From Xanthobacteraceae bacterium (GTDB lineage Bacteria; Pseudomonadota; Alphaproteobacteria; Rhizobiales; Xanthobacteraceae), in NCBI GenBank assembly GCA_009694215.1, contig SHVN01000002.1:1-64000 (forward strand): a stretch of 64,000 nt of DNA, read 5' to 3'. The position numbers were made by a program, and so were the translations under genes. The number at the start of each line of letters is the position of its first letter. Position 1 is the stretch's first letter. Positions 2,622 through 30,708 of this stretch are shown piece after piece. Under the pieces are notes generated by a model that was not told the DNA's origin, ran no database searches, and was given only the letters and a program-made list of their open reading frames with translations.

Positions 2622-4016
2622 ATGTCGCGTGGCGTGCGTTGGGTGCTCATAGGTTCCGCAGCTTTGGTGACGCTGGCCGGATGCGGCCGCGGCATCATGC
2701 AATATGCGGAGCGTGCGCAGTGGCGGCGCGAGGCGGAGGTGGCCTGCCTCAACTCCGGCACCGTCAGGGAGAGCGCCGGCATCGTCAAGATTTCGCCGAT
2801 CGAAGGCCCCGGCATGTGCGGCGCGGACGCTCCGCTGAAGGTCTCCGCGCTCGGCGAAGGCTCGGCGCTGGGCTATGTCGACGAGCCCATTCGCCCGCCC
2901 GGGTCGATTGCCGGGGGAGGCCGTCCGGCGGCGGAGCCGCGCTGGCCGATCCAGCAGCAGCCCTATCCGCCGCCGCGCGCACAGCCGCAGTATGTTTCCC
3001 CGCAACCCGGCGCGCCGATGTCGATCGAAGCGCCCGGCACCGCGCAGTATCCGCAGCAGCAGCTTGGCGCGCCGCCGTCCAATCTGCAGGCGCCGCCCGA
3101 CTGGCAGCGTAGCGGTGAGCGTCAGCCCGGCATGAACCAGGTTCTGGCCCGCCGTTCCGCCGCGCCGCCCATCGAGGACCACGACGAACTGCCGCCCTAC
3201 GCGCGGCCGGGCGCGGCACCGATCGGGCCGCCGCAATCCACACGGCCGCTGCCTCCGCTCGGTCCCCCGCGCAATCCGCAGCTTGCCGCCGCGACCCCGA
3301 TCGAGATCAGGCCCGTGGCGACGCTTGCCTGCCCGATCGTTTCCGCGCTCGACCGTTGGTTCGTCAACGCGGTGCAGCCCGCGGCGCGCAAGTGGTTCAA
3401 CCAGCCGGTGGTCGAGATCAAGCAGATCTCGGCCTATTCCTGCCGCGGCATGAACGGCCAGGCCGGCGCACAGATCTCTGAGCACGCCTTCGGCAATGCG
3501 CTCGACATCGCCGCCTTCGTGCTGGCCGACGGCCACCGCATCACCGTCAAGGGCAGCTGGAACGGTTCACCCGAGGAGCAGGGCTTTCTCCGCGACGTGC
3601 AGGCTTCCGCCTGCGACCAGTTCACGACGGTGCTGGCGCCGGGGTCGAACCAGTTTCACTACGACCATATCCACGTCGATCTGATGCGGCGGGCCAGCGG
3701 CCGGCGCATCTGCCAGCCGGGGGCGGTGGACGGCGAACTGGTGGCGTCGCGCGCCCGCAAGAACCCGGTCTATGCGTCGTCGCGGCCGATCGAGCCGCCG
3801 CCAACGCGGCGCTACGACCCTCCGGTGGAACCAGGCAGCGATCCGTTTGCCTGGCGCGGCGACGCCCGCCGCGGCGACCCGGCCACGACCGGGTCGATCG
3901 CCGCGCGCCGGCCCGGGATCAAGGATCCGACGGTCGAGGATCTCGACTGGGTCGAGGAGCCGGGTCCCCGCCCGGCCATCGACTGGAGCAGGGATAGCCG
4001 CCACAAGGTGCAGTGA
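2622..4016 (+). CDS. Extensin-like C-terminal domain protein with lipoprotein-like N-terminus and proline-rich linker
   Basis: LVTLAGCGR lipobox-like; C-terminal ISAYSCRGMNGQAGAQISEHAFGNALDIAAF...FHYDHIHVDL. Confidence 0.85.
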   Translation: MSRGVRWVLIGSAALVTLAGCGRGIMQYAERAQWRREAEVACLNSGTVRESAGIVKISPIEGPGMCGADAPLKVSALGEGSALGYVDEPIRPPGSIAGGGRPAAEPRWPIQQQPYPPPRAQPQYVSPQPGAPMSIEAPGTAQYPQQQLGAPPSNLQAPPDWQRSGERQPGMNQVLARRSAAPPIEDHDELPPYARPGAAPIGPPQSTRPLPPLGPPRNPQLAAATPIEIRPVATLACPIVSALDRWFVNAVQPAARKWFNQPVVEIKQISAYSCRGMNGQAGAQISEHAFGNALDIAAFVLADGHRITVKGSWNGSPEEQGFLRDVQASACDQFTTVLAPGSNQFHYDHIHVDLMRRASGRRICQPGAVDGELVASRARKNPVYASSRPIEPPPTRRYDPPVEPGSDPFAWRGDARRGDPATTGSIAARRPGIKDPTVEDLDWVEEPGPRPAIDWSRDSRHKVQ

Positions 4017-4118
4017 CCGGCGGTTCGGGGCGGCCTGAACGAAGTTGTATCGCGCGTATCGCGGCATCGAACCCACACGCCCGCTCAAGCGACCTATGCG
4101 TATCGAGGGACGAAACCC

Positions 4119-4349
4119 ATGATCCGCATCACGCTCGTTGCTGCCGCCGCGCTCGCAACCATCGCCACCGCCAGCCCCGCCATGGCGCAGGCCGGCGCGC
4201 CGGTCCGCACGCTTGAACAGCCCGCCACGGCTTCGGGCGTGACGGCCGCGAACGCCGAGCGGAAGGCCGCGCCCTGCGGCGACAAGAGCTGTGCCAGCAA
4301 GCTCCTCAAGCGCGACCGTTACGTCGCGGCCGCCCCGCTCGGCTGGTAA
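4119..4349 (+). CDS. Small predicted secreted protein (76 aa)
   Basis: Signal peptide MIRITLVAAAALATIATASPAMAQA, then short mature part with CGDKSC. Confidence 0.55.
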   Translation: MIRITLVAAAALATIATASPAMAQAGAPVRTLEQPATASGVTAANAERKAAPCGDKSCASKLLKRDRYVAAAPLGW

Positions 4350-4534
4350 TGCCTCGACTTTCCGCCTTCGCAGTGCGGTAAGAGGCCGAAAACGCCCCAA
4401 AAGGTCAGAAAACCCGTTCGCCCCTGCGGCACTATGCAGCGTCCCTTCACGGGGCGTTGTCGCGTACCGATATAATGGCGGGACTACAAGGAATCGGGCC
4501 CAGAGCCCAACCGATAAAATACGAGGAAACACCA

Positions 4535-5485
4535 ATGCTCCGCACTTATCGCCCGATGCTCGCACTCATGGCCGTCGTGGCCGCGCTGGCATTCACAATT
4601 GCATCGGTTGACGCGCGCCCGACGGGCAGTTCCGGCAGCCGCGGCAACCACACGTTTTCGGCGCCCGCGGCGACGCAGACCGCGCCGCGCGCGGCTCCGA
4701 TCGAGCGCAGCATGACGCAGCCGGCTCGCCCCGGCGCGGCTACCACCCAGACCGCAGGCGCAGCAGGCCAGGCCGCAAGGCCCGGACTGTTCGGCGGTAT
4801 GTTCGGCGGCGGCTTGCTCGGCGGTCTTGCCGCCGGCTTTCTCGGCGCCGGCCTGTTCGGCATGCTGTCCGGCAGCGGCTTCATGGGCGGGATGGGCGGC
4901 TTCGCCTCGATCCTCGGCCTGATCCTGCAGGTCGCGCTGGTCGTGATCGTCGCGCGCCTCGCCTGGGCCTGGTGGCAGCGCCGCAATCAGCCGGCGCTGG
5001 CAACCGGACCCTCGTTGCGCGACAATCTGTCGAACGACCGGCCGAGCGTCGGCGGCTTTGGCGGCGGATCGCCGGCTCCGGCCGACGAGCCGATCGAGAT
5101 CACGCCCGCGGACTTCGACGCGTTCGAGAAATTGCTCGGCGACATCCAGACCGCCTACGGCAAGGAAGACCTCGGCGCGCTGCGCGTGCACATGACCCCG
5201 GAAATGCTGTCGTACTACTCCGAGGAACTGGCGCAGAACTCAAGCCGCGGCGTCGTCAACCAGATCTCCGACGTGAAGCTCCTGCAGGGCGACCTCTCGG
5301 AATCCTGGCGCGAGATCAACGACGACTACGCCACCGTGGCGATGCGCTATTCGCTCACCGACCGGATGGTCGATCGTGCGACCGGCCGCGTCGTCTCGGA
5401 GGAGCCGTCCGAGGCCACCGAGTTCTGGACCTTCCGCCGCGCGCGCGACGGCCAGTGGATGCTCTCGGCGGTCCAGCAGACCTGA
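4535..5485 (+). CDS. Tim44-like domain protein
   Basis: N-terminal signal/TM, Gly-rich FGGMFGGGLLGGLAAGFLGAGLFG segment, C-terminal FDAFEKLLGDIQTAYGKEDLGALRVHMTPEMLSYYSEEL...FWTFRRARDGQWMLSAVQQT. Confidence 0.85.
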   Translation: MLRTYRPMLALMAVVAALAFTIASVDARPTGSSGSRGNHTFSAPAATQTAPRAAPIERSMTQPARPGAATTQTAGAAGQAARPGLFGGMFGGGLLGGLAAGFLGAGLFGMLSGSGFMGGMGGFASILGLILQVALVVIVARLAWAWWQRRNQPALATGPSLRDNLSNDRPSVGGFGGGSPAPADEPIEITPADFDAFEKLLGDIQTAYGKEDLGALRVHMTPEMLSYYSEELAQNSSRGVVNQISDVKLLQGDLSESWREINDDYATVAMRYSLTDRMVDRATGRVVSEEPSEATEFWTFRRARDGQWMLSAVQQT

Positions 5486-5508
5486 TCGCAAACGCAGACT
5501 GAATTCAG

Positions 5509-5540
5509 ATGGCCGGGCCGAAAGCCCGGCCATTTTGTTT
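5509..5540 (+). terminator. Rho-independent terminator-like hairpin after the Tim44-like gene
   Basis: ATGGCCGGGC-CGAAA-GCCCGGCCAT followed by TTTGTTTT. Confidence 0.75.
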
Positions 5541-5544
5541 TCGA

Positions 5545-5838
5545 TCAAGGCAGGTTCTTCAGAAACTCGATGTGCTCCGGCTCGTCGAACGCCCGCATCG
5601 TCGTGGTGCGAACATTGCCCTTGGAATTGACGGTCAGCACATATTTGGCGACGGCTTCGTCATTCGGCGCCTCGATGACCTGGACGAAGTCATAGGGCCC
5701 GAACGTCATGTAAACGTTCTTGCGGACGATGCCGAGTTTTGCCGCGGTATCCCGGGAGGATTGTTGCCGGTTGGGAATGTCCGCGACGTTCTTTGCACCG
5801 TGATCGGTGGAATTCACTAGAAGGATGTAGGTGCCCAT
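5545..5838 (-). CDS. GYD domain protein
   Basis: MGTYILLVNSTDHGAKNV...GIVRKNVYMTFGPYDFVQVIEAPNDEAVAKYVL. Confidence 0.85.
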   Translation of the reverse strand: MGTYILLVNSTDHGAKNVADIPNRQQSSRDTAAKLGIVRKNVYMTFGPYDFVQVIEAPNDEAVAKYVLTVNSKGNVRTTTMRAFDEPEHIEFLKNLP

Positions 5839-15736: not shown

Positions 15737-16315
15737 TCAGCCGACCGGCTCTTCGAACTTGAAGCCGATGGTCTGGAGGCCCTCCAGGGCCTTCTTGCCG
15801 TATTCGTTCTCGATCTCCTTGCCCAAACTCGGCGCGTAGGTGATCGGATCGACCTGCTGGTCGGTCTCCGGCACGATCATCACCAGAAGCCTCCCGACCT
15901 CGTCGGAGATGTTGAAGAACATCCGGTTCTCGCCGCGCGGGATCGAGATCATGTCGTTGGGCTCGAGGATCGTCTTGTGCTGGCCCTCGTCGCCCCAGGA
16001 AATCTCGAAGCGGCCGCACAGACAGAAGAAATTTTCCACCGTGTTGAGATGGCGGTGCAGGCCCGGGCCATTGCGCGGCGGGCATTCGGCGATGCTGACG
16101 ATGAGCCCGCGCGGGCCTTTGACCGGGGCGCCGGCGCTGCGGCCCTGGTAGTCGGGCGGCGCCATCACCGGAAACACCTTGCGGGCGGTGACCTTCTCGA
16201 CCGCGCCGGGCGGGATGTTGTGGGCCTCGAAGTTTTGCTTCTGGTAGGTCTGCAGCTTGTTGAAGCGGGCGGTGCGGGATTCCATCTGCTCGGGCGTCAG
16301 CGATTTGGATGTCAC
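15737..16315 (-). CDS. Cupin-domain protein
   Basis: PPRNGPGLHRHLNTVENFFCLCGRFEISWGDEGQHKTILEPNDMISIPRGENRMFFNIS. Confidence 0.82.
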   Translation of the reverse strand: MTSKSLTPEQMESRTARFNKLQTYQKQNFEAHNIPPGAVEKVTARKVFPVMAPPDYQGRSAGAPVKGPRGLIVSIAECPPRNGPGLHRHLNTVENFFCLCGRFEISWGDEGQHKTILEPNDMISIPRGENRMFFNISDEVGRLLVMIVPETDQQVDPITYAPSLGKEIENEYGKKALEGLQTIGFKFEEPVG

Positions 16316-16385
16316 GGCATTTCCTCCACCTCGGCGTTGCGGGGCGGCCCATTGTCCTCCAAACGCTGCGTCGAAACCAGCCCGG

Positions 16386-17615
16386 TCAGCCGCGCTTCAC
16401 GTTGGAAATGCGCGTCGGAACGCCGAACTCCCGGTGGCAGACATCGGCCAGGACCGCAATACCCTTGCGGATCTCGTCGTGGGTCGGGCTTGCGAAGCAA
16501 AGCCGCATCCGGCTCTTGCTATGTGGCTTGTTCACCGACCACTCCGGGCCGGGATTGATGGCGACGCCGGCTTGCAGCGCGGGCTGGTAGAGCTTCAGCG
16601 TGTCGACGTTGTCGGGCAGCTTCACCCACAGGAAGATACCGCCCTTCGGCTCCTCGAACTCGGCCGTGGTGCCGAACTGCTCGTTGAGCGATTCCATCAG
16701 TGTGTCGAGTTTCTTGCGCAGTCCCCGCGTCAGTTCGGGGATGTGCCTGGAGAAATGCGGCGCGCAGTATTCCGCCAGCACCATCTGCTCGACGGCGCCT
16801 GAGCCGGCGTCGAACTTGATCGAGAGCATGCGCGACAGGATTGCCCAGGGCGCGACGATGTAGCCGACGCGCAGCGCCGGGGCGACCGATTTCGAAAACG
16901 AGCCGATGTGGATCACGTTGGCGCTCTTGCTCATGGCGTGAATCGCCGGCGGCCGCTTGTGGTCCCAGATCAGGTCGGCGTAGCAGTCATCCTCGAAGAT
17001 CGGCACGCCATGCGTCTCGGCGAGCCTGAGCATCTCGGCGCGGCGGGATTCTGGTAGGATGCTGCCGGTCGGGTTCTGCACGGTCGGGATGGTGTAGATG
17101 TATTTCGCGCGGATACCGCGGCGCTTGAGATCGTCGAGCGCGCTCGCCAGCGCGTCCATCCGCATGCCGTCTCGGTCGAGCGGAATGCCGATCGCGTTGA
17201 CGCCCATGTGGGTCAGGCGGTTGATCGAGCCCTGATAGCACTCCTGCTCGATGATGACGGTGTCGCCACGGGCGAGCAGCACGCCGTTGACCAGATCGAG
17301 AGCCTGCAAGGAACCGGAGGTCACGAGGATTTCGTCTGCCGTGCAGACGATGCCGGCGTCGCGCTTGAGTTTCTGCACGAGGAAATCGCGGAGCGCGCGG
17401 TAGCCTTGCGGGCCGCTGGCAAGCCCATAGGTCGCAAGCGTGCGGCCCTCGCGCTTGAGCACCGCGTCAGATGCTGCGACCAGCCCGTCGAGCGGCAGTT
17501 CATCGGCGTCGTTGTTGCCGCCCGTGAAATTGTATTTTGGCGAGCCGGTCCATTTGACAGCAGGCGCTGGGAGGCCGGGGGGCAGGAGCGGGGTGAAGTC
17601 GAACGCGGTGGTCAT
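16386..17615 (-). CDS. PLP-dependent aminotransferase (class I/II)
   Basis: LRDFLVQKLKRDAGIVCTADEILVTSGSLQALDLV...YTIPTVQNPTGSILPESRR...DDCYADL...IHIGSFSKSVAPALRVGYIVAP; ORF trimmed to the ATG at 17615. Confidence 0.92.
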   Translation of the reverse strand: MTTAFDFTPLLPPGLPAPAVKWTGSPKYNFTGGNNDADELPLDGLVAASDAVLKREGRTLATYGLASGPQGYRALRDFLVQKLKRDAGIVCTADEILVTSGSLQALDLVNGVLLARGDTVIIEQECYQGSINRLTHMGVNAIGIPLDRDGMRMDALASALDDLKRRGIRAKYIYTIPTVQNPTGSILPESRRAEMLRLAETHGVPIFEDDCYADLIWDHKRPPAIHAMSKSANVIHIGSFSKSVAPALRVGYIVAPWAILSRMLSIKFDAGSGAVEQMVLAEYCAPHFSRHIPELTRGLRKKLDTLMESLNEQFGTTAEFEEPKGGIFLWVKLPDNVDTLKLYQPALQAGVAINPGPEWSVNKPHSKSRMRLCFASPTHDEIRKGIAVLADVCHREFGVPTRISNVKRG

Positions 17616-17635
17616 TTTCGGGACTCTTTGTTGTC

Positions 17636-18517
17636 TCACGCCAATCCGCTGGCGCGCGCCTGTTCGAGCGCCATCACCGCCCAGTCCTTGTCGCCGTCGC
17701 CGTGTGCGACTGCACCGACGAGGCGGTCGCGCCAGACATTGCCGCTCGGCAGGGGCACGCCCTTGAGGCCTCCGGCCTCCAGCGCCAGGTTGGCGTCCTT
17801 CAGGCCAAGCACCGCCATCTGGCCGACTTTCGAATAGCTCTCGTCCACCATGATCTTGCCGTAGACCTTGTAGGCCGAGCAGTTGAACAGCCCGTCGGTC
17901 ATCACGTCGTAGAAGACACTCGTCTCCACGCCGTATTTGCGCGTGAGCGCAAAGCCTTCGCCCATCGCCTCCATGGCGCAGCCGAGAACGAAATTGTTGG
18001 CGATTTTCATGGCGGTCGCGGCCTCCGGATCGGCGCCGCCCTCGAAGGTGCGCCGGGCGATGGCTCCGAACAGCGGTTTGCACTTGGCCAGCGCATCGGC
18101 TGGTCCCGAGGCGAAAACGCCTGCCGTGCCTGACGAAACGAGTTCCGGCCGGCCCATCATGGGAGCGGCCACCAGGATCTGGCCCTTGTCGGCGTGGGCC
18201 GCCTTGATCTTGCGGATCACCGGAATGCCGTGGGTACCGGCGCAGACGTGGACGCCGCCCTTCGGCAGCGATGCGAGAAGGCCTTCGCTCCGAAACACGA
18301 CATCTTCCAGCGCCGCATCGTCGGCCAGCATGGTGTAGGCGACATCGCCGTAGCGGGTCGTATCGGCGACCGAGCCGAGGATTTTGGCGCCGGCATCTGC
18401 CAGCGGTTTCGTCTTCGCAGGCGTGCGGTTGTAAACCCCTACGTCGTGCTTGGCTTCGAGCAGGCGGAGGACCATGGCCCCGCCCATGCGGCCCGTCCCG
18501 ATGAAACCGACCTTCAT
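17636..18517 (-). CDS. NAD(P)-dependent oxidoreductase, 3-hydroxyisobutyrate dehydrogenase family
   Basis: MKVGFIGTGRMGGAMVLRLLEAKHDVGVYNRTPAKTKPL...MMGRPELVSSGTAGVFASG. Confidence 0.92.
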   Translation of the reverse strand: MKVGFIGTGRMGGAMVLRLLEAKHDVGVYNRTPAKTKPLADAGAKILGSVADTTRYGDVAYTMLADDAALEDVVFRSEGLLASLPKGGVHVCAGTHGIPVIRKIKAAHADKGQILVAAPMMGRPELVSSGTAGVFASGPADALAKCKPLFGAIARRTFEGGADPEAATAMKIANNFVLGCAMEAMGEGFALTRKYGVETSVFYDVMTDGLFNCSAYKVYGKIMVDESYSKVGQMAVLGLKDANLALEAGGLKGVPLPSGNVWRDRLVGAVAHGDGDKDWAVMALEQARASGLA

Positions 18518-18544
18518 GGCATGACCCTCGTTATTGAAGTTGCG

Positions 18545-19741
18545 TTACTGAAGCTGCGCCCGCACCCATTCGATTTCGCGCGAGACGTAATCGACGATGT
18601 CGCCTGTCTTGAGATGATCCGGCAGCACGTCCCAGGTGTAGGTCTCGATCTCGAGCTGACGCGACAGCGGCTTTTTCTTGTGGAACTTCAGTGCGTCCTC
18701 GATGGCAAAGCGCGTGGTGCCGAACTCGCCGAGGTCGTCGAGGAACACCGGGACGTGGAAATGCGTACGCCATTCGCGCGGGCCCGGGTCGGTCTCCCAG
18801 GCCTTGAAGGCGTCTTCGAGATTGAGGAAGCGGTTGAGTTTGCCGTCCTTCTTCTCGACGGTCTGGGTGAGATAGATGGTCTTGGCGTAGCGTCGGAGCG
18901 TGTCGACATTTTTCTGAGTCACGTTTGGAATCCGCAAGGCTGCGGCTTCCTGCAGCTTGAAGATCGGAATGCCGGCGTCAACGAGCTTCTGCAGCGACAC
19001 GGCGATGTCCTCGTACACCACCGCCTGATGGCAGATGTCGAACACGGTGCCGATGAATCGGCGCTGCGCGACGATCGCCTCGGAGATCGGCAGGCCGGAG
19101 AACTTCGCCAACATCTCGGCGGATTTTCCGGTGTAGAGATGGTTGGTGAAGTAATCGACCGTTTCTTCGGTGGTCTCCAGGAAGCAGAATGGCTCGGGTT
19201 CGAGCGCGAGCGTCACGGTGCGGCCGGTGCGCTTTTCGAGGTCGATCAGCCGGGCCGCTACCCGCATGACGTGCTCGGTGTAGCTGTCGATCACGGCCTT
19301 GCCGGTGACGTTGGGCTTGAAGCCCAAAGGTGCGCTCTGGATCGACGGCGAAATTCCCATTGGCACCACGTCGGCGAGAATTTCCGCGACGTTCATGGTG
19401 TATTGCGTGCGTTCTTCCGAGCGCCAGTCCGGCTCGTAGACCTGCTCCTTGACGATCTGGTTCTTGAACGGCCCATAGGGGAAGGCATTGACGGTGTAGA
19501 GATACATGTTGTTGTCGGCGAGGAAGCTTTTCAGCTTGTCGCGCTCGGGCTTGCTCTTTACCAGCGTCGAGGCCGAGGAATTCGACAGCCGCAGTGATAC
19601 CCCGAACGGCGCGGTGGGGCAGACTCGCTTCTGCACCTGCGGCACGTAGGTGGTGAGCGAGGTCCACATGTCTTCCCAGGTGTCGCCGGGATGCACGAGC
19701 GTCGAATAGGTCAGGTGGCCGAGGCCGTTGCCGAGGTCCAT
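18545..19741 (-). CDS. EboE-like TIM-barrel protein (sugar phosphate isomerase/epimerase superfamily)
   Basis: NGLGHLTYSTLVHPGDTWEDMWTSL..YVPQVQKRV..PFGVSLRLS; YLYTVNAFPYGPFKNQIVKEQVYEPDW; SAPLGFKPN; LALEPEPFCFLETTEETVDYF. Confidence 0.75.
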   Translation of the reverse strand: MDLGNGLGHLTYSTLVHPGDTWEDMWTSLTTYVPQVQKRVCPTAPFGVSLRLSNSSASTLVKSKPERDKLKSFLADNNMYLYTVNAFPYGPFKNQIVKEQVYEPDWRSEERTQYTMNVAEILADVVPMGISPSIQSAPLGFKPNVTGKAVIDSYTEHVMRVAARLIDLEKRTGRTVTLALEPEPFCFLETTEETVDYFTNHLYTGKSAEMLAKFSGLPISEAIVAQRRFIGTVFDICHQAVVYEDIAVSLQKLVDAGIPIFKLQEAAALRIPNVTQKNVDTLRRYAKTIYLTQTVEKKDGKLNRFLNLEDAFKAWETDPGPREWRTHFHVPVFLDDLGEFGTTRFAIEDALKFHKKKPLSRQLEIETYTWDVLPDHLKTGDIVDYVSREIEWVRAQLQ

Positions 19742-19759
19742 TGCTGCTTGTTCTCTCTG

Positions 19760-20791
19760 TTACGAAATCTTTTCGACCTGGCCGCTTCTGGCGGAGCGGA
19801 TGATGGCTTCGCTGGCCGACGCGCCGTGCACGATCTGCTCGGGCGTGATCGGGAAGGTCGCGCCGCCTTCGGCCGCGCGGGCGAAGGATTCGAAGCAGGT
19901 GCGGATGATATCGAGCTTCTCGGCCTCCCACACCTCCAGCGGCCCTTTGATCGGCTGGAACTTGCAGGCGCCGAACAGCCGCGTCCGCCGTTCCTCCGAG
20001 GAGGCGCCGGCGACATGGGTGACGCCTTCGAGCCGATGCCAGCCCTTGGAGCCAAACACCTGAATGCTGAAGCCTGGCCCGGTGGTTGTGACGGTGCCGA
20101 GATAGCCCGACATGCCGACCTTCATGCGGAATAGCATGGAACTCGTATCGTCGGTCTCGCCTTGCAGGACCCGCGCGAAGCTCTGGCAATAGACCTGATC
20201 GAACTCGCCGCAGAGATCGATCATGGCGTCGACCGCGTGCACCCCGAGCGGCGCGAGGCCGCCGACCGGGGCTTCCGTCTTTATGGCGCGCCATGCGGTC
20301 GGTTTCAGCAGCAGCGCGTTTGGAAACGTCATGTTGCATTCGACGTGCTGGATCACGCCAAGCTCGCCCGCCTTTATCCGCTCGCGCAGCTTCGTCATCT
20401 CCGGATGGAAACGGCGGTTATATCCGACGCCGATCGTGCGTCCGGCCTTACGCATGGCGGCGACTGCAGTTTCGGCCTCGAGCCTGGAGAACGTGAACGG
20501 CTTTTCGCAGAACACATGTTTGCCGGCGGCGGCTGCTGCCACGATCTGCTGCATGTGCCCCGAGGGCGGCGTTGCCAGCACTACCGCGTTGACCTTTGGA
20601 TCGGCGAGGATTGCCTCGTAGCTGTCCGCGAGGCGGAGCGAGTATTGCTTGGCGAAGGCCTCGACGTCCGGCGAGACCGTGCGCGTCTGCAGGGAGACGA
20701 AGCGCATGACGTCGCTGCCCTCGGCGAGCGATTCCACCAGCGTCTTGCCCCACCAGCCCAGACCCACGATGGCGGCGTTGATCATGTTCAC
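19760..20791 (-). CDS. Gfo/Idh/MocA family oxidoreductase
   Basis: AAIVGLGWWGKTLVESL...VNAVVLATPPSGHMQQIVAAAAAGKHVFCEKPFTFSRLEAE...VGYNRRFHPEMTKLRERIKAGELG. Confidence 0.93.
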   Translation of the reverse strand: MNMINAAIVGLGWWGKTLVESLAEGSDVMRFVSLQTRTVSPDVEAFAKQYSLRLADSYEAILADPKVNAVVLATPPSGHMQQIVAAAAAGKHVFCEKPFTFSRLEAETAVAAMRKAGRTIGVGYNRRFHPEMTKLRERIKAGELGVIQHVECNMTFPNALLLKPTAWRAIKTEAPVGGLAPLGVHAVDAMIDLCGEFDQVYCQSFARVLQGETDDTSSMLFRMKVGMSGYLGTVTTTGPGFSIQVFGSKGWHRLEGVTHVAGASSEERRTRLFGACKFQPIKGPLEVWEAEKLDIIRTCFESFARAAEGGATFPITPEQIVHGASASEAIIRSARSGQVEKIS

Positions 20792-20826: not shown

Positions 20827-21204
20827 CTATTTGGGCCACGTCAGCATGGCGAGGGCGATGCAAGCCAGCATCCAGAACACGCAATACTCGATGCCGCCGA
20901 TCACCCAGATCCACTTCTTGGTGACCTTGTAGGTCGCGGCACCGGCGACCAGGAGATGGAACGCGGCGATGGCTGCGACGTAAGGCGTGTAGATGTTGAA
21001 GATGAGCCCGATCGCCAGGAAGGTCTCGATGGTGCCGGCGATATACATCCAGGTCGCCGGCGGATTGAACTTGGCGGCGACGAAGAAGCCCAGCGTGGCG
21101 GGCTCGGTGAACTTGCCGACGATATGCGGGATGAAGAACAAACCGCAGATCAGGCGCAGCAGCACGATCCCGTTGAGCAAGTTGAATTTGTCAGCCCACG
21201 ACAT
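20827..21204 (-). CDS. DoxX-like membrane protein
   Basis: Four predicted TM segments; LRLICGLFFIPHIVGKF...PATWMYIAGTIETFLAIGLIF. Confidence 0.65.
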   Translation of the reverse strand: MSWADKFNLLNGIVLLRLICGLFFIPHIVGKFTEPATLGFFVAAKFNPPATWMYIAGTIETFLAIGLIFNIYTPYVAAIAAFHLLVAGAATYKVTKKWIWVIGGIEYCVFWMLACIALAMLTWPK

Positions 21205-21285: not shown

Positions 21286-21897
21286 TCACCATCCAATCTT
21301 CTTGCCGCCCTTGAGCCAGCTCGCGCCCAAGGCATAGAGCTTGTCGGTTTCCGGGCCGTCGACCCCCGGCATGTCCTCCTTCACCTTGTAGCCGACCTTG
21401 GTCTGGAGGTAGGCAAGGTGACGGTAGCCTTCGGGGAAGCGCGCCAGGAGCTTCGGGTCGAGCTTGGGCGCCTGCGTCGGATCGACCGGGACGATGCTGT
21501 CCTTCTCGTAGGTCAGGCGGCGCCACACCAGGCCCCATTGGCCCTTGCGCTTCTCCAGGAAGTCGTAGAACCGGCCGATGCAGAGTACGTCGCACATCAC
21601 GCCCTCCACCTCGGCGCGCTGCGAGATCGACATCTTCGTCTGGGCGATGGCGCGCTTGCCCTTGATGTCGATCGAGGAGCCGCCGAGGAAGTGATAGATG
21701 CGCACGCCCTTGGCGTAGCCCTTCAGGTTGGCTGCGATAAATTCCTCGTAGGTGCCCTGAAACCAGGTCGCCCACATCCGCCCTTCCGGGTGCCAGACGG
21801 TCCGGAAGCGGTCCCACTGAAAGCTGTCGCGCCACACCGCCCAGTTCTCGATCAACTCGCGGATGGCGAGCTTGTCCTGTATCTGACTGACCGGCAT
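21286..21897 (-). CDS. SnoaL/NTF2-like family protein
   Basis: QIQDKLAIRELIENWAVWRDSFQWDRFRTVWHPEGRMWATWFQGTYEEFI. Confidence 0.75.
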   Translation of the reverse strand: MPVSQIQDKLAIRELIENWAVWRDSFQWDRFRTVWHPEGRMWATWFQGTYEEFIAANLKGYAKGVRIYHFLGGSSIDIKGKRAIAQTKMSISQRAEVEGVMCDVLCIGRFYDFLEKRKGQWGLVWRRLTYEKDSIVPVDPTQAPKLDPKLLARFPEGYRHLAYLQTKVGYKVKEDMPGVDGPETDKLYALGASWLKGGKKIGW

Positions 21898-21977
21898 TCC
21901 TTCCCTCCCACGGCCTGCTGGCGCCGGCCATCCCGCTGCTCTAGCCTTTGCCAACATTAAGCACAGCCGAGGGTGGT

Positions 21978-22742: not shown

Positions 22743-22924
22743 TTCGCTGTATTCGCCGTGGAACGGGCAGCCGCGGCGGCCAACCCCGGCGGCAAGCCCC
22801 GCAAATCGCGAATACCGCCTGCGGCAGCCGTGCGGCTACCAATTTGCCGGAAAATCGCTATGTAGAGGGCAACGCAAGCGAATTTGCCCTTTCTGAAAGG
22901 GCCCGGAATTCCAAGGAGATTACG

Positions 22925-23980
22925 ATGTCCGTCGCTGCCACCGTCGATCCCAAGCACAACGTGCAGGGCAACCGTCAGGCCTATTACGACAAGATCAGCA
23001 AGAAGGACATGGCCCCGCTCTGGGAGGTGCTCCGCCATGTCGTCACCAAGGAACCGAAATCGAAGTGCGCTCCGAACCTCTGGAAGTACGACGACGTCAA
23101 GAAGCTGATGCTGGAGGCGGGCGACGTGATTTCCGCCGACGAGGCCGAGCGCCGCGTGCTGGTGCTGGAGAACCCCGCGATGCGCGGCCAGTCGCGCATC
23201 ACCAACAGCCTGTTCGCGGGCGTGCAGCTCATCATGCCGGGCGAGATCGCCGAGGCGCACAAGCACGTCTCGTCGGCAATCCGCTTTGTGCTCGAAGGCG
23301 AGGGTGCGTACACCGCGGTCGAGGGCGAGAAGGCCAACATGTCGCGCGGCGACTTCATCTTGACGCCGAACTGGGCGCCGCACGACCACGGCAATCCCGG
23401 CAAGCAGCCGGTGATTTGGCTCGACGTGCTCGACATGCCGACGGTCAACCACTTCGAGACGTCGTTCATGGAGCACTTCGACGAGAAGGCGCAGAACACC
23501 GACCGCCAGGACGGCGACTCGCTGGAGCGTTATGGCTCGGGCGTGCTGCCGGACGGCTCGATGGACACGTTCAGCAAGCGCAGCCCGGTCATCAACTACA
23601 CCTATGCCCGGACCAAGCCGATTGTGGAGCGGCTGAAGAAGGCCGGCGACATCGACCCGCGCCACGGCGCCCGCGTGCGTTATTCGAATCCGGTCACCGG
23701 CGGCCACGTGATGCAGACCATGGGCGCCTACCTGGCGCTGTTCCCGAAGGGCTTCAAGGGCCAGGACTACCGCTCGACCGACAGCACCATCTTCGTCTGC
23801 GTCGAGGGCCACGGCACCACCAAGGTTGGCGACAAGGTGCTGGAGTGGGGTCCGAACGACGTGTTCGTGGTGCCGTCATGGCACCGCTATTCGCACAACG
23901 TCAAAGACGAGGCGGTTCTGTTCTCGATCTCCGACAGGCCGGCGCAGGAAGCGCTCGGCATCTGGCGCGAGGGGCAGTAG
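22925..23980 (+). CDS. Cupin protein, gentisate 1,2-dioxygenase-like
   Basis: YYDKISKKDMAPLWEVL...PAMRGQSRITNSLFAGVQLIMPGEIAEAHKHVSSAIRFVLEGEGAYTAVEGEKANMSRGDFILTPNWAPHDHGN. Confidence 0.85.
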   Translation: MSVAATVDPKHNVQGNRQAYYDKISKKDMAPLWEVLRHVVTKEPKSKCAPNLWKYDDVKKLMLEAGDVISADEAERRVLVLENPAMRGQSRITNSLFAGVQLIMPGEIAEAHKHVSSAIRFVLEGEGAYTAVEGEKANMSRGDFILTPNWAPHDHGNPGKQPVIWLDVLDMPTVNHFETSFMEHFDEKAQNTDRQDGDSLERYGSGVLPDGSMDTFSKRSPVINYTYARTKPIVERLKKAGDIDPRHGARVRYSNPVTGGHVMQTMGAYLALFPKGFKGQDYRSTDSTIFVCVEGHGTTKVGDKVLEWGPNDVFVVPSWHRYSHNVKDEAVLFSISDRPAQEALGIWREGQ

Positions 23981-24037: not shown

Positions 24038-26194
24038 TTATGCCGTTGCGGCGGCGGCGGCTCTTCGCCGCCGGCGCCGCAGGTGATCGACCAGCAGAAG
24101 CACGATCCCGGCGCCGATACCGATGAAGTTGATCGTGTGGCCGCCGGTGAAGCTCTCCGGCGGCAGCGCGATGGGCAGCGCGACGAAGCCGTAAACCAGC
24201 CGCATCGGAAAGGACAGCGGCGCGAGCGCGAAGCCGACGATCCCCGCCGTGCCGACGAACAGCGCGAACAGGATGCGCACGACGTTCCATACGATCAGGT
24301 AGCTCGGGCCGTCCATCAGCAGGCTCGGGGTGAGCACGAACAGGAATGGCAGGATAAATGTGCTCCAGCCGACCACGCAGGCGACCCATCCGGTGGTCCA
24401 GCCGTCGGTGCGCGCGATGTTGGCCGCGGCATAGGCCGCGAAGGCCACCGGCGGCGTGATCATCGACAGCATGCCGTTGTACATGACGAACATGTGCGCG
24501 GCCATCGGCGTGACACCGAGCTTGATCAATGCGGGTGCGAGCAGCGTCGCCGTCAGGATGTAGACGCTCACCGTCGGCAGGCCGATGCCGAGCACGAAGG
24601 CGAGGACTGCGATCAGCAGCAACAGCAGGAACACGTTTTCGCCGGACAGTGACAGGAGCTGCATCGTCATGCCGAAGGCCAGCCCGGAGATGCTCATGAT
24701 CCCGACCATGATGCCGGCAGCGGCGCCGATCAGGATGATGTCGAGCGACACGCGCCCGGACTCGATGACTGCGACCGCGATCTGCTTCAGCGACACGCGA
24801 TTGCTGCGGTAGCCGAAAATGAGCGCGAACACGATCAGGATGCCGGTGGCTGCGACCGCGGCCTTCTCCGGCGTCAGCAGCAGTACCTCCGGATAGATCA
24901 GCGCGACGACGAGAAAAACGATTGGCACCAGGAAGTGCCAGCCCGACGTGAGCACGCTTGAAAGCGACGGTATTTCCGCGGAGTCGACGCCGCCGATGCC
25001 GTGCTTGGCGGCCTCCAGATCGACGTGGATGAACAGGCAGGCGTAATAGAGGAGCGCCGGAATGGCGGCGGCGATGCAGACCGCGCCGTAGGAGACCTGT
25101 AAAAACTCCGCCATGATGAAGGCTGCGGCGCCCATCACCGGCGGCATGAGCTGGCCGCCGGTCGAGCCGACCGCCTCGATCGCGCCGGCGCGGTGCGGCG
25201 AGAATCCCGACTTGATCATGGCGGGAATGGTGACCTGGCCGACGGCGAGCACGTTCGAAACGGCGCTGCCGGAGATCATGCCGAACAGCGCCGAGCCGAC
25301 CACCGCGATCTTGGCTGCGCCGCCGCGGAACCTCCACATCGCCGACATGGCGAGGTCGGAGAAGAAATCCGCGCCGCCGGTGCGCGCCAGCACCTGGCCC
25401 AGGATGGTGTAGGGGATGACGATCAGCACCGCGACCTGGAGGATGTTGCCGATCATGCCGTTCACGTCGAGGCCGACATAGGCGACCATGCGCTCGGGGC
25501 TGACCCAGCGGGTCTGGAAATCGCCGCCCAGGAAAGGGCTCACATAGACGTAGGCGGCGATCGCCAGGATGATCGCGACGAAGCCCCAGCCGGAGATGCG
25601 CCGGCTCGCATCCAGCACCAGGAAGGTCAGGATCGCGCTTCCGACGACGCCCTCGACCGGCAGCATCGCCAGCTCATAGGTCAGCGCCTCGTAGCGGACC
25701 GTGATGTAGCCCGTGAGCAGCAGCGAAACCGCGGCGCAGAGCCAGTCGAACCAGCGCGCATAGGCTGCCCGGCTGGCGGTGAAGGTCCACACCAGCGTGA
25801 CGGCAAGGGCGCCGACCACCGGCCATGCGATGTCGCCCCGCGCGGTGTAGCGATAGATGAGGTAGATGACGATGACGCCCGCCGCGGTCACGCCGCCCTG
25901 GTCGATGGCGCTCGGTTGACGCGATGTCTCGGCGACGAAGGCGAGGGCGAGCGTGAGGCCCAGCGTTATCGCCAGGAGTTGCTCGGTGTAGAGCGATACG
26001 TTGAAGACTTGCCGCGGAACGTCCAGCACCCAGAGCACAACGCAGGCCACCAGCAGCGCCTGGAGAACGTTGGCCGCCAGCACTGTCATCTTCGACGATT
26101 CGGAGGCGAACTCCTCCGTGCTGGCAATGAATCGCTCCTCCGACGCGGCTGTAATGTGCGGTGTCGCGCCGGAGGGGGTGCGGTCGTCGTTCAC
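24038..26194 (-). CDS. TRAP transporter fused permease (TAXI-type, 718 aa)
   Basis: Many predicted TMs; SALFGMISGSAVSNVLAVGQVTIPAMIKSGFSPHRAGAIEAVGSTGGQLMPPVMGAAAFIMAEFL. Confidence 0.93.
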   Translation of the reverse strand: MNDDRTPSGATPHITAASEERFIASTEEFASESSKMTVLAANVLQALLVACVVLWVLDVPRQVFNVSLYTEQLLAITLGLTLALAFVAETSRQPSAIDQGGVTAAGVIVIYLIYRYTARGDIAWPVVGALAVTLVWTFTASRAAYARWFDWLCAAVSLLLTGYITVRYEALTYELAMLPVEGVVGSAILTFLVLDASRRISGWGFVAIILAIAAYVYVSPFLGGDFQTRWVSPERMVAYVGLDVNGMIGNILQVAVLIVIPYTILGQVLARTGGADFFSDLAMSAMWRFRGGAAKIAVVGSALFGMISGSAVSNVLAVGQVTIPAMIKSGFSPHRAGAIEAVGSTGGQLMPPVMGAAAFIMAEFLQVSYGAVCIAAAIPALLYYACLFIHVDLEAAKHGIGGVDSAEIPSLSSVLTSGWHFLVPIVFLVVALIYPEVLLLTPEKAAVAATGILIVFALIFGYRSNRVSLKQIAVAVIESGRVSLDIILIGAAAGIMVGIMSISGLAFGMTMQLLSLSGENVFLLLLLIAVLAFVLGIGLPTVSVYILTATLLAPALIKLGVTPMAAHMFVMYNGMLSMITPPVAFAAYAAANIARTDGWTTGWVACVVGWSTFILPFLFVLTPSLLMDGPSYLIVWNVVRILFALFVGTAGIVGFALAPLSFPMRLVYGFVALPIALPPESFTGGHTINFIGIGAGIVLLLVDHLRRRRRRAAAAATA

Positions 26195-26209
26195 TCGAAT
26201 GCCTGTTCC

Positions 26210-27199
26210 CTAGTAGGCCTTGGCTTCGATCTTCTTATCCTGGAAGTATTTCAGCGCACCAGGATGATAGGTCATGGTGTGCTTGCGATGCATTGTATCC
26301 AGCGAGAAGTCGTTCATCGCCGGCGCCGTCGCCACCATGTCCGGCTTGTTGTTGGCCATCGTGTCGATGATCTTGGCGACGGTCTCATCCTTCATCTTGG
26401 AGTTGGTGAACAGGATGTAGTCCATGCTGTACACCTGCATCGCCTCGGAGACGCCGACGTAGGCCGGAATCGGCTTCACTTCGGTGAAGTAGCCGTAGGG
26501 AAAGATTTTGCGGCTCGCTTCGAGGTTGCCGCCGACCTTGACGGCGCGCACGCCGCCGACCGTGGCGTCGGCCTCGCGCACCTTCGGGCCGCCGAACGAG
26601 AACATGAACATGTCGTTGGCGCCGGCCATGAAATCGTCGCCGCCGCGCAGCACGTTGGGCACCATGACGGGTTTCACGTCGTTGAGGGTAAGATCCGCGG
26701 TCGCCAGCATCGCCAGCGTGTTCTTGTCGAGCGTCCGCATGGCGGAATAGCCAGCCGGCACGCGCTTGCCCTTGACGTCGGCCATGGTCACGATCCCGCT
26801 GTCCTTGCGGGTGAAGAAGCCGATGCGCAGCACGTAGATCGAGCCGATGATGCGCAGGTCGCTCTGCAGCTTGCCGGTCTCGATACCTTCGACCACCTCC
26901 AGCATGTTGGCCATGCCGAGATCGATCTCGCCCTTGGCGACCATGGGAATGAGCACCGACTCGCCGGCGGTGTTCTGTACGAGCGTGTTCAGCCCGCCCT
27001 TTTCCTTAAGTGTCTTGGCGATGGCAGACGCAACCGTATGCGCCAGCGTGCCCGGCTGCATGGTGGCGAGGCCGTAGGTCTGCGCCGACGCGGCTTTGCC
27101 GCCGAGAGTCATCGCCAAAGCCATCAAGGCAGCGATCAAGCCGCTGCGGGCGATCTTTCTAAATCCGTTACTCATGGAATTTCCCCCTGGTTCACTCAT
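26210..27199 (-). CDS. TAXI family TRAP substrate-binding protein (copy 1)
   Basis: GLATMQPGTLAHTVASAIAKTLKEKGGLNTLVQNTAGESVLIPMVAKGEIDLGMANMLE. Confidence 0.88.
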   Translation of the reverse strand: MSEPGGNSMSNGFRKIARSGLIAALMALAMTLGGKAASAQTYGLATMQPGTLAHTVASAIAKTLKEKGGLNTLVQNTAGESVLIPMVAKGEIDLGMANMLEVVEGIETGKLQSDLRIIGSIYVLRIGFFTRKDSGIVTMADVKGKRVPAGYSAMRTLDKNTLAMLATADLTLNDVKPVMVPNVLRGGDDFMAGANDMFMFSFGGPKVREADATVGGVRAVKVGGNLEASRKIFPYGYFTEVKPIPAYVGVSEAMQVYSMDYILFTNSKMKDETVAKIIDTMANNKPDMVATAPAMNDFSLDTMHRKHTMTYHPGALKYFQDKKIEAKAY

Positions 27200-27212
27200 T
27201 CAATCCGTTCGA

Positions 27213-28175
27213 TCACTGGACCGCTCGTGGCGTGACGTTTTTCTCCTTGAAGTACTTCAGCGCGCCCGGATGGTATGGCACGCCGTACTGCTTGTATGCG
27301 AAGGCCGGCGTGTACTCGCGGAGCACCGGCTGCACGGCGATCAACTCGTCCTTGTTCTGCTCCATCAGGGTCAGAATCTTGTTGACGAAGTCCTCGGGCA
27401 TCTTGGCGGACACGATCAGCACGTTGTCGAAGCTGTAGACCTTCATTGGCTTCTCGACGCCGGTGAAGATCGGGCCTGGCCCGATATCTGTCAGATAGCC
27501 CCAAGGCATGACCTTTTTCGCGGCCGGCATGCCCGTCTCGTCGATTTCGAGCGCGCGGATGCCGCCAACGGTGGCGTCGGCCTCCTTCACCTTCGGCCCG
27601 CCGAAGGCGAAGGAAAACATGTCGGCATTGCCGGCGATGAACTCGTCGGCGCTGCGCATCACGTTGGGCACCAGGACGGGCTTGATGTCGGCCGGGGTCA
27701 GGCCCGCGGTGGCAAGCTGGGCGACCATGGTCTTTTCGATGTTGCGCATGGCGGAGTAGCCCATGCTCACGCGCTTGCCTTTCATGTCGGCGATCTTGAA
27801 CAGGCCCGAGTCCTTGCGCACGAAAAACGGCGTGCGAAGCGCATGGACCGCGGCGATGAGGCGCATGTCCTTGAATTGGCCGTCGAACGCGTCCTGCGCC
27901 TCCATGATGTTGGTGATGCCGATCTCGACCTCGCCGCGCCCGACCATCGGATTGATGACCTGATCGCCGGCGGTGGGCTGCACCAGCATGTTGATGCCGC
28001 CCTTCTCCTTCAGCACCTTGGAGACGGCGGCCGCGGTGGTGTGATTGAGCGTGCCCGGCGGCAGCGTGGCAAAGCCGTAGGTCTGGGCTGACGCAGGTCC
28101 GACGCTCAGGGCCAGTCCGAGGACGGCGGCTGCCAAAGATCCAGTGGCGGCACGAATGATCGCAGGCATTTGCAA
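27213..28175 (-). CDS. TAXI family TRAP substrate-binding protein (copy 2)
   Basis: GFATLPPGTLNHTTAAAVSKVLKEKGGINMLVQPTAGDQVINPMVGRGEVEIGITNIMEA. Confidence 0.88.
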   Translation of the reverse strand: MQMPAIIRAATGSLAAAVLGLALSVGPASAQTYGFATLPPGTLNHTTAAAVSKVLKEKGGINMLVQPTAGDQVINPMVGRGEVEIGITNIMEAQDAFDGQFKDMRLIAAVHALRTPFFVRKDSGLFKIADMKGKRVSMGYSAMRNIEKTMVAQLATAGLTPADIKPVLVPNVMRSADEFIAGNADMFSFAFGGPKVKEADATVGGIRALEIDETGMPAAKKVMPWGYLTDIGPGPIFTGVEKPMKVYSFDNVLIVSAKMPEDFVNKILTLMEQNKDELIAVQPVLREYTPAFAYKQYGVPYHPGALKYFKEKNVTPRAVQ

Positions 28176-28195
28176 GTCCTCCCCTCAGGTTCTCG

Positions 28196-29185
28196 CTATT
28201 GAGCTGCTTTGATTTCGATCTTGTTGTGGGCGAAATACTTCAGTGCGCCGGGATGATATGGCGTGCTGAATTTCTTAAACAGCCCCCCAGGCGTGAAGGC
28301 TCGCAGCGCCGGCTGGACGGCCACGAGGTCGTCTTTGTTCTTGGCCATTGCCTCGATCAGCTTGTACACGACGTCGTCCTTCACCGTGGCGTTGGTGAAC
28401 AGCAGATTGTCCCAGGTGTAGACGCCCATCGGCTTGTCGACGCCGATATAGAACGGGCCCGGCGCCGCCGGCGCCAGATACCCTTCGGGATAGATCTTGC
28501 GGGCGGCAGGCATGCCGCTTTCCGAAATTTCGAGCGCGCGGATGCCGCCGACGGTCGCGTCCACCTCGCGCACCTTCGGCGCGCCGAAGGCGAAGTAGAA
28601 CGTATCGGCCGCTCCCGACAGGAAGTCGTCGGCGCCGCGGATTACGTTGGGCACGAGCACCGGAGAAATGTCGGCCTCGGTCAGGCCGCCGGTGGCCAGG
28701 ATCGCCCGGGACAGGATGTCGAGCGTGCGTTGCGCCGAGAATCCGAACACCACCTTCTTGCCCTTGAGATCGGCGATGGTGCGCATGGTAGTGTCCTTGC
28801 GCACGAAGAACGCCGTCGGCAGCGGATGGATCGCACCGATCAGCCGCAACTCCGGCAGCCGGTTGTTTTCCACGGCGACGGACACTTCGAGCGCATTGGC
28901 GATGCCGAACTCGGCTTCGCCGCGGCCGACCAGCGGGATGATCACGGATTCGCCCGCGGTCGGCTGCACCAGCGCGTTCAGGCCGGCTTTTTCCTTGATG
29001 ACCTTGGCGATCGCGGTGCCGGTGGTGTGGTTCAGCGTGCCGGGCTGCATGGTGGCGAGCCCGAGCGCCTGGGCTGCGGCCGGAGCCGATTCCATGGCGA
29101 GCGCAGAGAGCGCGCCGGAAAGGCCGAGCGCTGCGATGCGAACGATCCGTGCGATGGACATTTTATTGTTCCTCCTAGGCGGCAA
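28196..29185 (-). CDS. TAXI family TRAP substrate-binding protein (copy 3)
   Basis: GLATMQPGTLNHTTGTAIAKVIKEKAGLNALVQPTAGESVIIPLVGRGEAEFGIANALE. Confidence 0.88.
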   Translation of the reverse strand: MPPRRNNKMSIARIVRIAALGLSGALSALAMESAPAAAQALGLATMQPGTLNHTTGTAIAKVIKEKAGLNALVQPTAGESVIIPLVGRGEAEFGIANALEVSVAVENNRLPELRLIGAIHPLPTAFFVRKDTTMRTIADLKGKKVVFGFSAQRTLDILSRAILATGGLTEADISPVLVPNVIRGADDFLSGAADTFYFAFGAPKVREVDATVGGIRALEISESGMPAARKIYPEGYLAPAAPGPFYIGVDKPMGVYTWDNLLFTNATVKDDVVYKLIEAMAKNKDDLVAVQPALRAFTPGGLFKKFSTPYHPGALKYFAHNKIEIKAAQ

Positions 29186-29804: not shown

Positions 29805-29919
29805 TAAAGTCTACCGAAAAATCCAATGAATTTCAGAGGCCTATCGGCAGTGCCGGGTGCGGGTCCGGACGAAGTGCGGTAATGAACATCGAAGTCATTC
29901 CCGAACCGAAAGCGCCGCC

Positions 29920-30708
29920 ATGCCCCGCTTCGCCGCCAATCTCGCCTACCTCTTCACCGAACGGCCGCTGCTCGAGCGCTTTGGCGCGGCCGCGGCGGCT
30001 GGCTTCAAGGCGGTGGAACTGCAGGCGCCCTATGACCACGCGCCTTCGGCGCTCAAGGCCGAAATCGACAAGCATGGGCTCAAGCAGCTCGGCATCAACA
30101 CCTTTGTAGGCTCCCGCCCGGGCGATTCCGGATTGGGCGCGGTGCCGGGCCGCGAGAACGACTGGGACGTGGTGTTCAAGCAGGCGCTCTACACCACAGT
30201 GGCGATCGGCGGCAGCGCGATCCATTGCATGGCGGGGACGGTGCCGCCGGAGCAGCGGCCGGCCGCGGAGCGCACCTTCATCGCCAACCTCGCGCGCGCC
30301 GCGGATCTGGCCAAGGAAAAGAACGTCACGCTGCTGATCGAGCCGATCAATCAGCGCGACCGGCCGAACTACTTTCTCACCCGCATCGAGCAGGCCGCCG
30401 ACATCATCGTTAAGGCCGGCCGGCCCAACATCAAGATCCAGTTCGATTTCTATCATGTGCAGATCGTCAGCGGCGATCTCATCACGCGCTTCCAGAAACA
30501 CCTGCCGCTGATCGGTCATGTGCAGATCGCGGCGGCGCCCTCGCGCGCCGAGCCGGACGAGGGCGAGATCAACTATCCGGGTGTGTTCGAGGCGCTCGAC
30601 AGGCTCGGCTGGTCGGGCTGGACGGCTTGCGAATACAAGCCCCGCGCGCGCACCGAGGACGGCCTCGGATGGGGCCGGGCGTATGGACTGGGCGGGCACG
30701 CGGCCTGA
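29920..30708 (+). CDS. Hydroxypyruvate isomerase family TIM-barrel protein
   Basis: MPRFAANLAYLFTERPLLERFGAAAAAGFKAVELQAPYD...LLIEPINQRDRPNYFLTRIEQAADII...IQFDFYHVQIVSGDL...GHVQIA. Confidence 0.92.
   Translation: MPRFAANLAYLFTERPLLERFGAAAAAGFKAVELQAPYDHAPSALKAEIDKHGLKQLGINTFVGSRPGDSGLGAVPGRENDWDVVFKQALYTTVAIGGSAIHCMAGTVPPEQRPAAERTFIANLARAADLAKEKNVTLLIEPINQRDRPNYFLTRIEQAADIIVKAGRPNIKIQFDFYHVQIVSGDLITRFQKHLPLIGHVQIAAAPSRAEPDEGEINYPGVFEALDRLGWSGWTACEYKPRARTEDGLGWGRAYGLGGHAA

Follow-up and report, generated by a model that had tools for sequence, protein, structure and literature searches.

What does a protein of the EboE family do where no ebo cluster surrounds its gene? The question is raised by an open reading frame (ORF) in a 64,000-nucleotide stretch of DNA from a Xanthobacteraceae bacterium (contig SHVN01000002.1, positions 1 to 64,000), the whole of which we call the window. 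Our analysis places the encoded EboE-like protein in a distinct, widespread branch of the EboE family that lies outside the ebo pathway, and suggests that it is probably a divalent-metal-dependent, xylose-isomerase-like TIM-barrel enzyme of a catabolic operon.

18545 to 19741, minus strand: EboE-like xylose-isomerase-type TIM-barrel protein, 398 amino acids; NF035939 410.8 bits, E 4.3e-123

An EboE-like protein outside the ebo cluster

The ORF runs from ATG to stop at exactly the coordinates given by the initial annotation, and the three motifs on which that annotation had based its EboE assignment (HLTYSTLVHPGDTWEDMWTSL, NAFPYGPFKNQIVKEQVYEPDW and LEPEPFCFLETTEETVDYF) are found in it. The match to the NCBIfam model NF035939 (TIM_EboE), a hidden Markov model (HMM) search proposed as a check at the time, extends from end to end, lies far beyond chance and clearly passes the curated equivalog cut-off of 250 bits. 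A Pfam scan of the window proteins returned no match for this one; of 47 proteins of its clade, 13 match PF01261 (xylose-isomerase-like TIM barrel).

As had been noted, no EboA, EboB (TatD-like), EboC (UbiA-like), EboD (dehydroquinate synthase-like) or EboF gene was seen near the EboE-like gene. The source genome (G000), a metagenome-assembled genome (MAG) of 198 contigs that is 77% complete, holds one EboE, and as far as it is assembled no ebo cluster was found elsewhere in it. This genome-wide search covered EboA, EboC and EboD, the TatD-like and phosphodiesterase families of EboB and EboF being too general to be telling. It gave no match for EboA, a best match of only 42.7 bits for EboC (cut-off 250) and, for EboD, a single 3-dehydroquinate-synthase-type match of 207 bits (cut-off 333) that is most simply read as an ordinary AroB. 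Since the MAG is incomplete, its lack of ebo genes is weak evidence alone; a stronger test comes from 50 other genomes with close relatives of the gene, 49 of which lack EboA in a search that detected both positive controls. The sole genome of the 50 with both a non-ebo EboE and EboA (174 bits) is G671 (locus L034, contig C130), where the two pathways may coexist naturally in a single cell.

Our genome collection contains at least 471 stretches that are relatives of the window protein. We analysed the 80 best of them, which encode proteins of 59–97% identity and come from Actinobacteria, Acidobacteria and Alpha-, Beta- and Gammaproteobacteria. In a maximum-likelihood tree built from 99 proteins, a single branch, 0.87 long and fully supported (Shimodaira–Hasegawa-like approximate likelihood ratio test, SH-aLRT, 100), divides 77 window-type rows from 21 ebo-cluster EboE rows, the window protein falling outside the ebo-cluster group; an earlier tree agrees with the split. 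Because this tree is unrooted and came from a quick search, with some ebo rows on long branches and cyanobacterial ebo unsampled, we speak of a separate clade, not of one derived from the other. The two clades differ systematically at 13 positions. Like EboE from ebo clusters, the window protein gives a full-length NF035939 match over the cut-off; it is 41–44% identical to ebo-cluster EboE of Hyphomicrobiales and has putative catalytic residues in common with them. Unlike them, it belongs to the separate clade, has no EboA, EboC or EboD partners and stands among genes of catabolic type. The initial annotation's description as an orphan EboE-like protein needs correction in one respect: the protein belongs to a broad clade and is not a stray.

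Within the window's own genus the gene is present in 7 of 11 genomes, including all four of good quality. Among 14 genomes of the host order with an EboE, 12 have the ebo kind and two (the source genome and G102) the window kind. A phylum-wide protein search of 399 genomes gave, besides the window's own gene, two distant matches only, and the clade is thus sparse.

The gene neighbourhood in the window and across the clade

The EboE-like gene is flanked on its own strand by six further genes:

15737 to 16315, minus strand: Cupin_2 protein, 192 amino acids (PF07883); lineage-restricted
16386 to 17615, minus strand, start assumed at ATG 17615: pyridoxal-phosphate aminotransferase of class I/II (PF00155); lineage-restricted
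17636 to 18517, minus strand: HIBADH-family (beta-hydroxyacid) dehydrogenase, 293 amino acids (PF03446, PF14833); conserved core partner
19760 to 20791, minus strand: Gfo/Idh/MocA oxidoreductase (Gfo), 343 amino acids (PF01408, PF22725, PF02894); conserved core partner
20827 to 21204, minus strand: DoxX-family small membrane protein, 125 amino acids (PF07681); recurrent upstream partner
21286 to 21957, minus strand, start uncertain: SnoaL-like protein (PF13577); probable first gene of the operon; lineage-restricted

All four neighbours previously named (cupin, aminotransferase, HIBADH-family enzyme and Gfo) are confirmed on the minus strand, and the DoxX and SnoaL-like genes just upstream on the same strand add to them. 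In the direction of reading (SnoaL-like, DoxX, Gfo, EboE-like, HIBADH, aminotransferase, cupin) the gaps are 81, 35, 18, 27, 20 and 70 bases, so that the Gfo stop lies 18 bp before the EboE-like start and the HIBADH-family gene begins 27 bp after the EboE-like gene. Given this short spacing and the common strand, the seven genes are likely a single operon.

To compare neighbourhoods in Proteobacteria and Acidobacteria we used 44 loci with at least 1.5 kb of sequence on both sides. In 35 of these loci, and in none of 12 ebo loci, the EboE gene has both a Gfo and a HIBADH gene on its own strand within 3 kb; at a distance of no more than 350 bp, same strand, Gfo is found in 32 of the 44 and HIBADH in 38. 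Of 58 clade loci outside Actinobacteria, 20 have a same-strand DoxX gene at most 3.5 kb upstream. Identities to the window proteins covary between the EboE-like protein and its partners (Spearman 0.79 for Gfo and 0.67 for HIBADH, uncorrected for shared ancestry of the hosts). The block of EboE-like, Gfo, HIBADH and aminotransferase genes for which the initial annotation had proposed a survey is thus conserved across phyla in its Gfo–EboE-like–HIBADH core, often with DoxX. Its aminotransferase and the cupin occur near the gene only in the closest relatives (aminotransferase in L016, L017, L020 and L090; cupin in L016, L020 and L090), and on this ground we do not count the aminotransferase as part of the core. 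A SnoaL-like gene within 3 kb is likewise seen in all 6 closest relatives and in none of the 38 others.

Other recurring neighbours in the clade are MetE-C-like, CobW, pyruvate dehydrogenase (PDH)-like E1/E2, M24 and metallo-beta-lactamase-fold proteins and importers, and the proteobacterial loci show catabolic signs in the form of a GntR/FCD regulator, PDH-like E1/E2 and TRAP or ABC genes. Actinobacteria have different partners: their loci encode a sugar-type binding protein, an ABC importer, an IolM/Tdh-like Zn-dehydrogenase, an M24 metalloenzyme and an XRE-cupin regulator, with M24 and the Zn-dehydrogenase in 19 of 21 loci each, ABC-type genes in 15 and a VOC protein in 14. No single gene block is universal in the clade, because the actinobacterial partners (Zn-dehydrogenase, M24 protein, ABC importer) differ. 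In Paraburkholderia and Caballeronia a third arrangement combines an ABC importer, a Dabb protein, the EboE-like protein, BKACE, a short-chain dehydrogenase/reductase (SDR) and ketopantoate-reductase-like proteins. The M24 proteins of Actinobacteria and of the other group are 48% identical at the median, a link that is only suggestive. M24 relatives also turn up apart from EboE: the source genome encodes a 47% homologue elsewhere, and each of the 11 genomes of the genus has M24 relatives, whether it carries EboE or not; for this reason M24 was dropped as a firm pathway marker.

Predicted fold, proposed role and alternatives

An AlphaFold2 model of the window protein, computed with 47 clade sequences, reached a mean predicted local distance difference test score (pLDDT) of 90.6 and a predicted TM-score (pTM) of 0.91. 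Its Foldseek matches in the PDB include UlaE (L-xylulose-5-phosphate 3-epimerase, E 1.5e-7) and AtHYD (2-hydroxy-3-keto-glucal hydratase, E 5.6e-7), followed by AsbF, YcjR (3-keto-glucoside 4-epimerase), IolI and xylose and rhamnose isomerases. With high confidence, the predicted fold is that of the metal-dependent xylose-isomerase-like TIM-barrel group. A profile alignment to Hyi-like isomerases (P 3.7e-5) matches E181 to the canonical IEP glutamate and D235xxH238 to the canonical DxxH motif, residues that may form a putative divalent-metal site. At ten positions (E181, E183, D235, H238, K262, Q264, H327, H329, E364 and E366) conservation extends across both EboE clades. Against single ebo-linked sugar isomerases, hhalign gave the clade alignment no more than short local matches, one of them around LEPEP; the Hyi-like alignment performed better. 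That the window protein is an enzyme, as had been proposed for this EboE relative, is well supported by the predicted fold and the conserved residues. Neither of the two outcomes that the initial annotation had named as refuting its reading was observed.

Enzymes of the Gfo/Idh/MocA family typically turn a sugar or cyclitol hydroxyl into a ketone. Metal-dependent TIM barrels of the xylose-isomerase-like group work beside a carbonyl through enediol or enolate chemistry. We infer metal dependence, a catabolic direction and the following order of steps. An imported substrate that resembles a sugar or a cyclitol would first have one of its hydroxyls oxidised by Gfo, with NAD(P), to give a ketone. 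Next, the EboE-like enzyme would act on the carbons beside the carbonyl so made, by enediol or enolate chemistry at the metal, in an isomerisation, an epimerisation or a beta-elimination/hydration. The HIBADH-family enzyme would come last, oxidising or reducing the resulting hydroxy- or oxo-acid or semialdehyde. On this reading the window protein is a sister of the EboE of ebo clusters, with the same fold and putative catalytic residues in a different pathway. The importers and regulators encoded in related loci suggest that a compound is taken up and degraded, not exported. Pairs of a Gfo and a TIM barrel act in C- and O-glycoside breakdown, as in DgpA/DgpC (PMC8563793) and in an Agrobacterium OGE/HYD/Gfo operon (PMC10628242).

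Several observations weigh against this proposal. We found no clade member with a measured activity, and the neighbouring genes are suggestive of a pathway, not proof of one. The Gfo and HIBADH pair is not obligatory, being present in 0 of 17 actinobacterial loci and 0 of 3 from Paraburkholderia and Caballeronia. The fold matches have TM-scores of about 0.4–0.5 by query length at 10–14% identity, and for this reason the specificity cannot be read from the fold. The structure check that the initial annotation had suggested yields a predicted isomerase-type fold with E181 and D235xxH238 in register; the canonical strand-7 histidine ligand aligns with K262, followed by the common Q264, so that the putative metal site may be unusual or altered. 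Compared with the PF01261 barrels UlaE, AtHYD, YcjR, IolI and Hyi, the window protein is alike in fold, in a weak sequence relation and in its E...DxxH...E residues, and unlike in this lysine, in the low identity and in its length (about 400 amino acids against about 280).

An unlikely alternative keeps the Gfo and barrel pair and assigns it to 3-keto-glycoside deglycosylation. Gfo would oxidise a glycoside at C3, the barrel would beta-eliminate, as in DgpA/DgpC and OGE, or hydrate a glycal, as in AtHYD, and the aglycone would pass to nearby aromatic genes such as that for gentisate 1,2-dioxygenase. As in DgpA/DgpC and AtOGE/AtHYD, an NAD-type Gfo gene stands directly beside that of a putative metal TIM barrel of related fold; the nearest solved relatives of the Gfo protein are 3db2, DgpA and AAOR, AtHYD and YcjR rank high among the fold matches, and a gentisate 1,2-dioxygenase (485.9 bits against 442.1) is encoded 3 kb away. 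However, the clade profile gave no match to solved PDB chains at E up to 1, though structures of DgpC-type proteins and OGE have been solved, and UlaE scores as well as AtHYD. Retention of the gentisate dioxygenase is limited to the closest relatives, none of the neighbours was recognised as a DgpB-like small subunit, and the available text of PMC8563793 and PMC10628242 describes no HIBADH, DoxX or M24 partners of these systems. We consider it similarly improbable that the operon breaks down cyclitols specifically, whether inositol-like compounds or aminocyclitols; Gfo would then serve as an inositol-type 2-dehydrogenase, and the barrel would take the part of IolE, IolI or MocC. IolI is a fold match, an isoprenoid-cyclitol product has been proposed for ebo (PMC5133447), and the inositol 2-dehydrogenase IolG is the best NCBIfam match of the Gfo protein, just as the actinobacterial Zn-dehydrogenase is nearest to the scyllo-inosose 3-dehydrogenase IolM. 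These two scores, 116 and 226 bits, fall far under the curated cut-offs of 355 and 450, and no other iol gene was recognised among the annotated neighbours.

It is very unlikely, and strongly disfavoured by our data, that the window protein is a true EboE that carries out the ebo reaction on a cyclitol precursor of the same type, the other ebo genes being lost or unassembled. The score over the equivalog cut-off, the putative catalytic residues common to both clades and the incomplete genome speak for this; against it stand the general lack of EboA in the other clade genomes, the separate position in the tree, the conserved non-ebo neighbours and the 13 systematically differing positions. A link to 2-oxo-tetronate/threonate catabolism was dropped, as the HIBADH protein scores 100.5 bits against 350 for L-threonate dehydrogenase and the window's Hyi-like gene sits 10 kb off; this HIBADH protein lies under every NCBIfam equivalog cut-off.

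Beyond a catabolic barrel enzyme as such, the clade might constitute an undescribed enzyme family with a reaction of its own, in an undescribed keto-sugar or keto-cyclitol catabolism with variants in Proteobacteria, Acidobacteria and Actinobacteria, a tentative proposal that we rate slightly below an even chance. Our search of the open-access literature, which takes in few subscription papers, found neither EboE relatives in catabolic operons nor this gene arrangement described, and an earlier description may exist outside it. If true, this proposal would imply that the clade and ebo EboE share one class of chemistry, and would thereby offer an experimental way into EboE function. EboE has been placed in the xylose-isomerase-like superfamily or called a TIM-barrel enzyme, and is among the ebo proteins without an assigned reaction (PMC5133447, PMC6282210). 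The sister clade, encoded outside the ebo pathway and beside soluble NAD-linked dehydrogenases, is easier to assay, since the Gfo product is a candidate substrate.

The automatic label 'metabolite traffic protein EboE' is probably misleading for the window protein. It is of the same superfamily and HMM family as EboE and lacks two of the features that define the EboE of ebo clusters, cluster context and tree position. A fitting annotation should be 'EboE-like TIM-barrel protein of a Gfo/HIBADH operon', and the clade should not receive the equivalog label. NF035939 covers two different things; therefore, not every genome scored as having EboE has the ebo pathway.

Genuine ebo loci and other genes of the window

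The 12 ebo loci of the same order contain an EboA-type gene in 9 cases, an EboB-type in 10, an EboC-type in 10, an EboD-type in 9 and an EboF-type in 11, some loci being cut by contig ends. Plasmid records from Salipiger, Ketogulonicigenium, Azospirillum, Mycetohabitans, Deinococcus, Aureibacter, Streptomyces and Roseivivax mostly hold the full set; in the Deinococcus record a hypothetical protein stands where an annotated EboA would be expected, and in that of Streptomyces an inositol-3-phosphate synthase replaces 3-dehydroquinate synthase. On the Ketogulonicigenium vulgare plasmid (L118), two Gfo/Idh/MocA genes (3777–5823) lie directly upstream of eboD–eboE in a complete ebo cluster, and Gfo enzymes may accordingly feed genuine ebo pathways too.

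Glucose/sorbosone dehydrogenases (GSDH, PF07995) are typically periplasmic. A GSDH gene adjoins the ebo genes in 10 of the 12 order loci (L096, L098–L103 and L105–L107), a cytochrome c gene stands beside them in 8 of the 12, and Salipiger has a pyrroloquinoline quinone (PQQ)-dependent dehydrogenase there; these dehydrogenases may hint at periplasmic oxidation of the ebo product.

Elsewhere in the window, the gentisate 1,2-dioxygenase gene occupies 22880–23980 on the plus strand and is preceded by an SDR gene. A second TIM barrel, at 29857–30708 on the plus strand, is a canonical PF01261 protein near 2-oxo-tetronate/hydroxypyruvate isomerase (300 bits against 325), and five other genomes of the genus also have a PF01261 gene 11–14 kb from the EboE-like gene. 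Between them, on the minus strand (24038–29185), a fused TRAP permease is followed by three consecutive TAXI-like solute-binding genes (26210–27199, 27213–28175 and 28196–29185), the first confirmed by HMM and the other two alike by eye. This set is retained in close relatives, and three binding proteins for one TRAP permease is an unusual arrangement.

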